Positions 40,649 to 57,482 of a stretch of 64,000 bases of DNA are shown piece by piece (positions within the stretch are counted from its first letter, which is position 1; every line of letters begins with the position of its first letter). This DNA is from Planococcus sp. MB-3u-03 (GTDB lineage Bacteria; Bacillota; Bacilli; Bacillales_A; Planococcaceae): NCBI RefSeq assembly GCF_002833405.1, contig NZ_CP025135.1, positions 291,501 to 355,500 of the forward strand. The letters are read 5' to 3'. The notes below the pieces were generated by a model. That model was not told the DNA's origin and ran no database searches. It saw only the letters and a program-made list of their open reading frames with translations. Position numbers and translations under genes: made by a program.

Positions 40649-40686
40649 GCTCGGACTACGTGAAGAGTATAGTATAGGAAAGTGAG

Positions 40687-40866
40687 TAGAAAAGCTTCCG
40701 CTTTTCGACTGCGTTACAGGGGGCTGCTTTCCGAGGGGCGGGTGTTGAGCCAATGTGCCGCTAAGTGCACGGCACATTTGTCTCGCCAGCCCGCGCGGTC
40801 CCTCAGGAGTCAGCCCCCTTCCACTCCGTCTCTAGCTTTAGAGGGGAAAATCATTTCTTCAGCTCC
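40687..40866 (-). repeat. Repeat module R2, copy 1
   Basis: About 180 bases matching the reverse complement of 57211-57390 nearly throughout. It begins (plus strand) with GAAAAGC-TTCC-GCTTTTC, then a long imperfect palindrome: GGGGGCTG pairs with CAGCCCCC, GAGGG (40732-40736) with CCCTC (40799-40803), and an apical AATGTGCCG / CGGCACATT. Strand is given so that module R1 precedes R2. In that direction the last hairpin has a GGAA loop. No ORF is shared between the copies. Confidence 0.85.
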
Positions 40867-40974
40867 TTTAAAATGAAATGTAGAAATTCATCTTATTATA
40901 TAGCTAACTTCAAACAGGTAGAAGAATGGAGGGTCACGTGTCTTCATCCACAAAACAAACCCATAAATTTAACT

Positions 40975-41250
40975 TACTCAATTAGCGGCTTGTCAGACGC
41001 ACCATCTCGGGAAGCGATTCCCCCCGTTAGCGGGCAATTGGTTAGAGAAGCAGATCTGATTATACATTCTTCACATAACAGAATCTTTAAGCCGCCGAGC
41101 GACACGGATGAGCCGCCGCAATGAGACAGGCGTTCTTCCTGGCTTATTGCGGGAGGCCAACCCAAAGCAAGGCGGCGAATACCAACATGGAGCTCCATTC
41201 AATATTCAGCAACCTTGTTACAAGAAAACTTTCGCTATCAAGTCCAGCTA
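40975..41250 (-). repeat. Repeat module R1, copy A
   Basis: Read on the minus strand this matches the plus strand at 56585-56835 and 56841-57085, with the best-kept stretch GCTTTGGGTTGGCCTC. Together with R2 copy 1 and a diverged ~110-base spacer it forms a composite unit. It contains an open frame of 74 codons (41198 to 40974) with the ALGWP and ISQEERLS words also present in the other copies, but no ribosome site is visible, so I do not call a gene. Confidence 0.8.
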
Positions 41251-41336: not shown

Positions 41337-41777
41337 TTATTCGAAGATATAGGACAAAGCTTTGATCGCCTGGTCACAGGTTTCGACGGTGGCGTTCGCT
41401 TTTTGGGAAAGTTCTTTTAACGGGTGATGCAATTTTTCAGGGCGAATGACGATGAGTGGTTTATGGCTTGCCAAAGCGGAGCTTGCGTCCATCGCTGTAT
41501 TCCACTGCTTGTACTGTTCGCCGAACAAGGCGATGACAAGGTCCGATTTTTCCATCAACACGCTTGTGCGCAAATTATTGAAGCTGGATGCAGCGGCGTC
41601 TTTGAAGATGGCGCTCGGCTGTTCACCCAGGATCTCTTCGCCGATATTGTCGGAGCGGTCGTGGTCTTCCATCGGCCCGACAAAATCGACCGGCAGATTG
41701 AGCGCCAAGGATTTCTTTTTGATTTCTTCGCGCCAAGAACTGTGAATTTCGCCTGCAAGGTAAACGGTTAATCTCAT
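41337..41777 (-). CDS. YtoQ family protein
   Basis: 146 aa. Matches YtoQ: opens MRLTVYLAGEIHSSWREEI, then VGPMEDHDRSDNIGEEILG and EKSDLVIALFGEQYKQWNTAMD. The fold resembles nucleoside 2-deoxyribosyltransferase-like proteins; activity is unknown. ATG 41777 with GGAGGATGAG upstream is chosen over ATG 41786, which would sit on the ribosome site. Single gene. Confidence 0.88.
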   Translation of the reverse strand: MRLTVYLAGEIHSSWREEIKKKSLALNLPVDFVGPMEDHDRSDNIGEEILGEQPSAIFKDAAASSFNNLRTSVLMEKSDLVIALFGEQYKQWNTAMDASSALASHKPLIVIRPEKLHHPLKELSQKANATVETCDQAIKALSYIFE

Positions 41778-41843
41778 GAGTCTCATCCTCCATTTTCCAT
41801 TTCCTCTTAGTGTAGCATAAAGCAGGAAGAGTCGGAAAAGGAT

Positions 41844-56535: not shown

Positions 56536-56549
56536 AGATGAGTGGAGAA

Positions 56550-56575
56550 GCGTGCCTATTGGGTGCGCTTTTTTT
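56550..56575 (+). terminator. Terminator of the ABC operon
   Basis: AAGCGTGCC / GGTGCGCTT stem with two wobble pairs and eight T. Confidence 0.8.
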
Positions 56576-56584
56576 TATTTGGCT

Positions 56585-56835
56585 GGAAAGCTGGAATTAG
56601 AATGTGAGGGTTTTCGAGCGGAACTATTGTTGGGGATTGAGTTGAGCATCGTTTTGGTATCCGCCGGCCGGCTTTGGGTTGGCCTCTTGCAATAAGCCAA
56701 GAAGAGCACTTGTCTTATTGCATCGGCTCACCCTTGGCACTCAGCGGCTTGGGGATTTCATTGTTTCCTGCTTGATCAAATCGATCTGCTTCTATATATA
56801 GTTGCCGGCTAGTGGGGGAATCGCTTCCCGGATTG
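56585..56835 (+). repeat. Repeat module R1, copy B (partial unit)
   Basis: Similar to 56841-57085 and to the minus strand at 40975-41250. It includes GCTTTGGGTTGGCCTC, a hairpin GCAATAAG (56689-56696) / CTTATTGC (56714-56721), and the terminal GGGGGAATCGCTTCCC. Here R1 is not followed by R2 but by another R1. Confidence 0.8.
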
Positions 56836-56840
56836 AGTGT

Positions 56841-57085
56841 AGATGAAGAAAGCGAGGGTTTGCTTGCGGAAGTGTTTCGGCTTTCTAGTTGAGCTTCATA
56901 TTGGCAATCGCCGCCGTGCTTTGGGTTGGCCTCTTCTAATAAGTCAGAAAGAACATCTGTCTTATGGCGTCGGCTTACCCTTGGTGCTCGGAGGCTTGGA
57001 GATTTCATTGCGTGGGGATTGTTTAATCAGCTCTGCTTCTGTAGATTTTGCCGGCTAGCGGGGGAATCACTTCCCGAGACGGGGC
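56841..57085 (+). repeat. Repeat module R1, copy C
   Basis: Third copy of R1, in the same order with R2 as at 41 kb (R1, ~125-base spacer, R2). Contains a 71-codon open frame (56843-57058) sharing ALGWP, ISQ-x-EHLSY and LGGL words with the other copies. The hairpin of copy B is kept only in part (ATAAG/CTTAT). Confidence 0.8.
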
Positions 57086-57210
57086 ATCTCACAGGTTGAT
57101 AGTGAAACAGGAAAACTTGTTGTTTTGCAAATGGAGACTCAGAACACTTCAGACCTTGTTCTGTTTGAGGCAAGCTATAGAATATGATGCGTTTTAATCT
57201 TTTTATCAAG

Positions 57211-57390
57211 AGGATTGAAGAAACGATTTTCTACTCTAAAACTAGGAGACGGAGTGGAAGGGGGCTGACGCCTGTGGGATCGCGCGGGCTGGCGAGACAA
57301 ACGTGGCGCGTCCTTTGCGGCACGTTGGCTCAACACCCGCCCCACGGCAAGCAGCCCCCTGAAACGCAGTCGAAAAGCGGAAGCTTTTCT
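57211..57390 (+). repeat. Repeat module R2, copy 2
   Basis: Near-identical in reverse complement to 40687-40866. Stems: GGGGGCTG with CAGCCCCC, GTGGG (57274-57278) with CCCAC (57341-57345), and AACGTG (57300-57305) with CACGTT (57321-57326). It ends in GAAAAGC-GGAA-GCTTTTC. Base changes relative to copy 1 keep pairing at three positions. Confidence 0.85.
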
Positions 57391-57451
57391 AATCTCTTAA
57401 TCATTAATCATTCAATCTTTTATTGTCAGACTCCCTAAATTCCAACAAAAC

Positions 57452-57482
57452 AAAAAACGTGCCGCAGGGGCACGTTTTTTTA
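57452..57482 (-). terminator. Terminator of the cyclophilin gene
   Basis: ACGTGCC / GGCACGT stem flanked by A6 and T7, so it can work in both directions; it lies just past the cyclophilin stop. Confidence 0.88.

Follow-up and report, generated by a model that had tools for sequence, protein, structure and literature searches.

A BOX-like modular interspersed repeat with a probably selected fold in a clade of Planococcus

The closest described counterparts of the intergenic repeat reported here are the pneumococcal BOX element, bcr1 of the Bacillus cereus group and the REP/REPIN palindromes. BOX (boxA-boxB(n)-boxC) is an intergenic element of 67–637 bp as a whole, with a variable inner module and a predicted RNA fold, which is enriched between convergent genes and for which terminal repeats and target duplications are reported; about half of the insertions are common to all strains, with varying length (PMC3049150). 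The authors of that account lean towards a parasite that moves slowly and may affect the genes transcribed together with it (PMC3049150). BOX is also proposed to stop, protect or process the transcripts of its neighbours. A second account gives bcr1 as a repeat of 147–167 nt, predicted to have a conserved structure and present 12–31 times in B. anthracis, while its mobile-element traits and its specificity to the B. cereus group are stated by the title of a work cited there (PMC2267715). Likened by description and not by sequence, our element resembles BOX in having an end module (here R2), an inner module of variable copy number (R1) and a conserved fold, as well as in its intergenic placement, its enrichment between convergent genes and its shared positions with varying length; unlike BOX, its R1 units measure ~175 nt and recur about every 247 nt, and the R1-type core spans several genera. 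Like bcr1, it is an interspersed Bacillales repeat with structure, whereas bcr1 is a single module and the Planococcus element is a composite. REPs are known for their inverted pairing. Our element shares with REP/REPIN the character of high-copy extragenic palindromes; however, REPs measure 20–40 bp and the module here exceeds 100 bp with bulges, and the window's genome lacks a Y1 transposase.

The window is the whole stretch of 64,000 nt analysed here, from Planococcus sp. MB-3u-03 (assembly GCF_002833405.1, contig NZ_CP025135.1, positions 291,501 to 355,500). The sense strand of the composite is defined as its R2-to-R1 reading, which is the minus strand at copy 2. On the plus strand, copy 1 consists of an R2 module (40689..40856; nhmmer match L031 2193-2357) with a first hairpin at 40689-40706 and a main hairpin at 40718-40819, a spacer (40857..41007), and an R1 unit (41008..41182; nhmmer match L031 2509-2683) whose covarying core lies at 41076-41180 (covariance model match L031 2577-2681). 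On the minus strand, the R2 module of copy 2 (57221..57389) is an nhmmer match of the R2 profile (L033 2722-2887) extended to the first hairpin (57372..57389), which has 7 bp and a loop reading TTCC on the minus and GGAA on the plus strand; the GAAAAGC-GGAA-GCTTTTC hairpin described in the earlier note is present at these positions. The main long hairpin of this module (57259..57360), supported by fold z and covariation, has conserved bulges and contains all three compensated pairs discussed below. A spacer (57077..57220), which varies more between species than either module, separates it from R1 unit 1 (56905..57076; nhmmer, with a covariance model match at L033 2407-2511), and R1 unit 2 follows at 56657..56830 (nhmmer; covariance model match L033 2160-2264). 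Copy 1 is flanked by a DUF4870 gene and an opposed reading frame (41337-41786), and copy 2 lies between genes for an ABC transporter and a cyclophilin. A pattern scan placed a terminator-like hairpin on either side of copy 2: one follows the cyclophilin gene and separates it from R2 (57452..57480, minus strand), and the other follows the ABC transporter gene and faces R1 (56544..56574, plus strand). Copy 1 likewise has such a hairpin at its R1 end and another, seen by eye, at its R2 end. Read-through from the neighbouring genes may therefore be rare. At copy 2 only, a promoter-like match stands directly before R2 (57429-57400, minus strand), where the region holds 2 such matches against a shuffled mean of 0.9.

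Throughout this genome, BLAST and profile searches gave the same order on one strand, i.e., R2 (~165 nt), a spacer, and R1 (~175 nt) in tandem with 0–4 R1 units. At least 39 intergenic stretches carry the element: R2 is found in 34 of them (31 with at least one R1, 3 with R2 alone) and R1 alone in 5, with R1 counts that include fragments and with stretch L061, made of two groups 1.9 kb apart, counted once. Since 40 of the 58 candidates were scored in this search, some copies in the genome may be missed. The spacer mostly measures 77–151 nt (263 nt in one of 31 stretches), and 17 of the 34 R1 start-to-start spacings fall between 243 and 248 nt; a protein-coding repeat is not supported, as no frame runs through the array, 24 of these spacings not being multiples of 3. 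Two types of R2, A and B, are short, and a third is lengthened by an inserted domain; the R2 main hairpin covers ~102 nt and the R1 core ~105 nt. As a side observation, one R2 copy shows several tandem GAAGTGAAAA units just before its 5' boundary, as if slippage had occurred at the element edge. With the element read from left to right, the raw ORF calls (n = 39) gave both neighbouring genes co-directional at 15 stretches, convergent at 14, both opposed at 9 and divergent at 1. Note that at L031 the raw call for the left gene proved incorrect, since the DUF4870 gene lies there in the other direction, and that among the ten opposed left genes 6 were confirmed by Pfam (L034, L046, L048, L053, L058 and L061), L040 and L051 gave no family and L065 fell outside the Pfam check. 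The stretch L040 (contig C4 of this genome, 7049 bases) has flanks that match two element loci, L036 on one side and L042 on the other, and these mixed flanks may stem from a recombination event across the repeat, or else from a misassembly.

The two modules differ in their distribution. By BLAST, R2 is present in at least 14 of 46 Planococcus genomes, and the R1 core, searched with the covariance model, in all 46 among the matches listed. When at most 15 candidates were scored per genome, the core was found in at least 82 of 250 genomes of the family and at least 5 of its 19 genera, and in the order-level search the matches listed all came from genomes of this family and from these 19 genera. 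Four fully searched genomes of another family genus gave 27 to 100 R1-core matches among those listed. In that genus, R1 cores were seen head-to-head or alternately inverted (L139, L141, L142, L149, L150 and L159), with nine of them in 3.1 kb at L159. At L141, a remnant (AGCGCCAAGCG, ~60 nt past the core) looks like a core with the whole hairpin deleted between short direct repeats, and a cobalamin riboswitch (RF00174, 125 bits) lies at L141 1108-1292 on the minus strand, near an R1-core copy. Searches for described counterparts were negative within their scope: Rfam 15 gave 0 matches in the window, permissive Rfam thresholds gave nothing above the gathering score on R2 or R1 in 17 loci and in window positions 56600-57450, plasmid and phage records had no match to a 976-nt element, and a literature search, mostly outside subscription journals, gave no such repeat or RNA of Planococcus among the results listed.

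Positions are largely conserved within the clade. At the cyclophilin locus, R1 cores are found in 13 of 14 clade genomes (the fourteenth is cut by its contig end) with 1 to 5 cores depending on the species, and 16 cyclophilin loci of other species gave no R1 core at E 0.01. Among element stretches of 13 sister species, fetched by element similarity and not through the cyclophilin gene, 82 of 90 have non-element flanks common to an element locus of this genome; counted as distinct places, 77 of 85 share such flanks, and there has thus been little recent movement. Seen from this genome, 19 of 39 loci have such a partner among the fetched stretches, with both flanks shared in 17. The R1 copy number nevertheless varies, as at the L050 locus where orthologs carry 1 to 6 units. 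Different R2 types (A, B and long) were observed at orthologous loci (L033, L045, L050 and L056, with orthologs picked for type-A similarity), which suggests exchange between R2 copies. In terms of p-distance, the copy-2 locus gave 0.262 for the spacer, 0.170 for R1 and 0.146 for R2, and the overall values were 0.275 for the spacer, 0.199 for third codon positions, 0.174 for R2 and 0.156 for R1; other intergenic sequence stands below R2 at 0.123, although this class had been filtered for sequence that could be aligned and takes in short genes that were not called.

The two R2 arms of the window (40680-40832 and 57246-57398, 153 nt each) are inverted and 90% complementary, and differ at 15 positions when read on one strand. 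The earlier note had reported three compensated pairs between them. All three exist, with the copy-2 coordinates that it gave, but its copy-1 coordinates were one too low: the A-T pair 40734-40803 is replaced by T-A at 57344/57275, the T-A pair 40730-40808 by G-C at 57348/57270, and the T-A pair 40754-40776 by C-G at 57324/57302. Placed on the predicted fold, the 15 differences comprise 6 in these double-changed and kept pairs, 6 at unpaired positions and 3 that break a pair by one substitution each, namely 40683-40823 and 40686-40709 in weak outer helices and 40758-40772 near the apex; the remark that the rest is nearly unchanged is thus fair, but passes over three broken predicted pairs. When the same 15 substitutions were placed at random 200,000 times, at least three compensated pairs arose in 0.0395% of the trials. 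The fold z was −4.57 for copy 1 and −4.09 for copy 2, with 0 of 200 shuffles as low for either.

On a larger scale, we aligned the 79 type-A copies among 89 unique full-length short R2 copies (from 183 profile matches), leaving out the 10 others (type B by our rule) and the long insertion-bearing copies. In these 79 copies, 95.0% of the pair cells are standard against 40.4–49.2% when partners are slid by 1–3 positions, a comparison in which the unslid pairing is favoured because this alignment also supplied the structure. Double changes were found in 22 of 57 pairs (shuffled mean 11.4, maximum 16) and in 146 cells (shuffled mean 35, maximum 47). Against a null in which substitutions are replayed on the tree, 2 of the 57 pairs are significant and 0 outside the fold. 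These are two of the three compensated pairs of the window, 40734-40803 (UA 51, AU 14, GC 12) and 40754-40776 (CG 49, UA 20, GC 6), and the third, 40730-40808 (GC 63, UA 15), fails this null. Between orthologous type-A copies, paired sites differ at 0.065 and unpaired sites at 0.148, and 303 double changes (232 from Watson-Crick to Watson-Crick and 71 otherwise) were counted against 28.6 expected if both sides were independent, a ratio that is not to be read as a probability since comparisons overlap and copies may convert one another. In the same comparisons, 277 changes affect one side only, and 195 of these destroy the pairing (81 to A-C and 114 to other mismatches). In addition, 13 unpaired hairpin columns, the apical loop aside (42, 43, 60, 66, 94, 96, 101, 104, 111, 112, 114, 120 and 125), are 95–100% conserved, and column pair 44-124 is fixed as U-G in 79 of 79 copies. 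The view in the earlier note that such paired changes betray selection on the fold is supported by this many-copy alignment, and the predicted fold would be selected as single-stranded nucleic acid.

The evidence for a conserved fold is stronger for the R1 core. In 60 distinct distant copies, in an alignment fitted to the covariance model, 94.4% of the cells are paired, slid versions reaching 30–45%, and 18 of 23 pairs have double changes, values that 0 of 500 shuffles attained. When 47 copies of this genome were aligned with MAFFT alone, 12 of 23 pairs showed double changes. In the clade (213 copies), the tree-based null is passed by 2 of 28 pairs and by none outside the fold. We also considered R2 as an inverted relative of R1, given a shared AGAC...GGCU motif, and found no support for it: a first R1 model had no match at R2 in 6 loci, and with a second model 3 of 8 loci showed an antisense match at R2, at E values of 0.43, 0.43 and 5.2.

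Which strand carries the selected form depends on the module considered. The earlier note had favoured the R1-to-R2 direction as the RNA strand owing to the GNRA-type loop of the first R2 hairpin. Of 79 copies, 66 indeed have a GNRA loop here when read as antisense and none when read as sense, which favours that direction, but the wobble counts do not follow: in R2, G-U and A-C events number 47 to 46 (133 unique rows of 153, long variants included) and 28 to 28 in a second count, and R1 wobble favours the opposite strand. Over all 28 pairs of the R1 core, changes from Watson-Crick to G-U and to A-C stand at 101 to 45 (p = 4e-6), in favour of the R2-to-R1 strand, and at 85 to 41 over 26 robust pairs; an in-clade sign test by pair (13 to 6, p = 0.17) and the same asymmetry in 61 distant copies (18 to 9, p = 0.12) are not significant. 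In this genome, all 44 R1 units counted have a GNRA loop in their 5' hairpin on the R2-to-R1 strand. Because the wobble bias in the clade and the GNRA loop point to the same strand, the selected form of R1 is most likely the R2-to-R1 strand, as a putative transcript. For R2, a DNA-level fold or hairpin-templated correction may lie behind the missing wobble asymmetry; its neutral wobble and its antisense GNRA loop do not agree, and its selected form may be RNA, of either strand, or an extruded DNA hairpin.

Altogether, we consider it somewhat better than an even chance (about 0.55) that the element is an R2-headed modular interspersed repeat of the BOX kind, now mostly fixed, whose fold is selected and whose likeliest role would be a local effect on transcripts. 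Along these lines, an old R1-type structured repeat would have spread in the family, and the R2-headed composite would have arisen in the ancestor of a 14-species Planococcus clade, then multiplied, presumably spreading in the past as a non-autonomous repeat. It would now be mostly fixed, while loci would still gain and lose R1 units and copies would probably exchange R2 types. The likeliest effect would be a local one, in which a highly stable hairpin close to the 3' ends of genes may stop, protect or process the transcripts of the neighbours.

The best surviving alternative, though an unlikely one, is that the modules are free-standing structured non-coding RNAs acting in trans, i.e., R1 and possibly R2 on the other strand, amplified for dosage as in the binding of a protein or of ribosomes. 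The R1 core running through all 46 Planococcus genomes and at least 5 of 19 family genera, its fold kept while the sequence was replaced, the strand-specific wobble in the window's clade and the GNRA loops would all suit such RNAs, as would the opposite GNRA strands of R1 and R2, expected of two divergent RNAs. However, no conserved sigma-70 promoter was detected upstream of R2 when 77 of the 89 copies were scored (best-score mean of 7.68 against 7.58 in shuffled sequence, and scores of at least 9 in 16.9% against 12.0%), which makes an independent RNA gene less likely; match numbers range from 1 to 100 between carrier genomes, among the matches listed, and the alternating inverted copies of another genus look more repeat-like than gene-like. 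A bolder form of this proposal, in which the R1 core would be an undescribed Planococcaceae class of structured RNA with up to ~100 copies per genome, joined in one Planococcus clade to an R2 of opposite polarity so as to form a divergent RNA pair with a tunable R1 number acting in trans, appears decidedly doubtful.

Rather improbable as well is a DNA-level hairpin of the REP/MITE type, in which a cruciform or single-stranded DNA would be recognised by a transposase or a nucleoid protein with RNA uninvolved. The equal tolerance of R2 for G-T and A-C (47 to 46) is what a two-stranded cruciform would show, and the interspersed high-copy distribution with 1 of 39 stretches between divergent genes, the head-to-head inverted pairs of another genus and the L141 remnant without its hairpin between short direct repeats point the same way. 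Against this, R1 wobble is strand-specific in the window's clade, the 77 of 85 conserved sister places leave little recent movement, and the Y1 transposase domain (Y1_Tnp, PF01797, RAYT) gave 0 matches in G000, G028, G221 and G176, genomes with many element copies. This domain was found in 8 of the 16 genomes searched, with 5 of 14 control genomes positive. A RAYT link was rejected, the window's genome being without a Y1 transposase, and a REPIN-type dependence is for the same reason unlikely. Templated correction within an imperfect palindrome could produce such paired changes. That replication copied one palindrome arm from the other, giving paired changes without selection or function, would agree with double changes lacking wobble asymmetry in R2 and with conversion between copies as suggested by R2-type exchange at orthologous loci, but is very improbable as the main cause, given that bulges should vanish under correction, yet the 13 unpaired R2 columns are conserved and the U-G of column pair 44-124 is fixed, and that the strand-specific R1 wobble is left unexplained.

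Returning to the reading of a BOX-like repeat with a selected fold, its meaning would depend on whether this fold is functional. If it is not, this well-sampled example of compensatory pairs in a repeat without RNA strand preference would be a caution against covariation as sole proof of a functional RNA. The question of a functional RNA is testable, since R1, strand-biased in the clade, and R2, unbiased, share one element. If the fold is functional, the Planococcus clade would possess dozens of position-conserved structured loci per genome, with a possible role in transcript ends, transcript stability or the structure of the chromosome, that have no Rfam entry.
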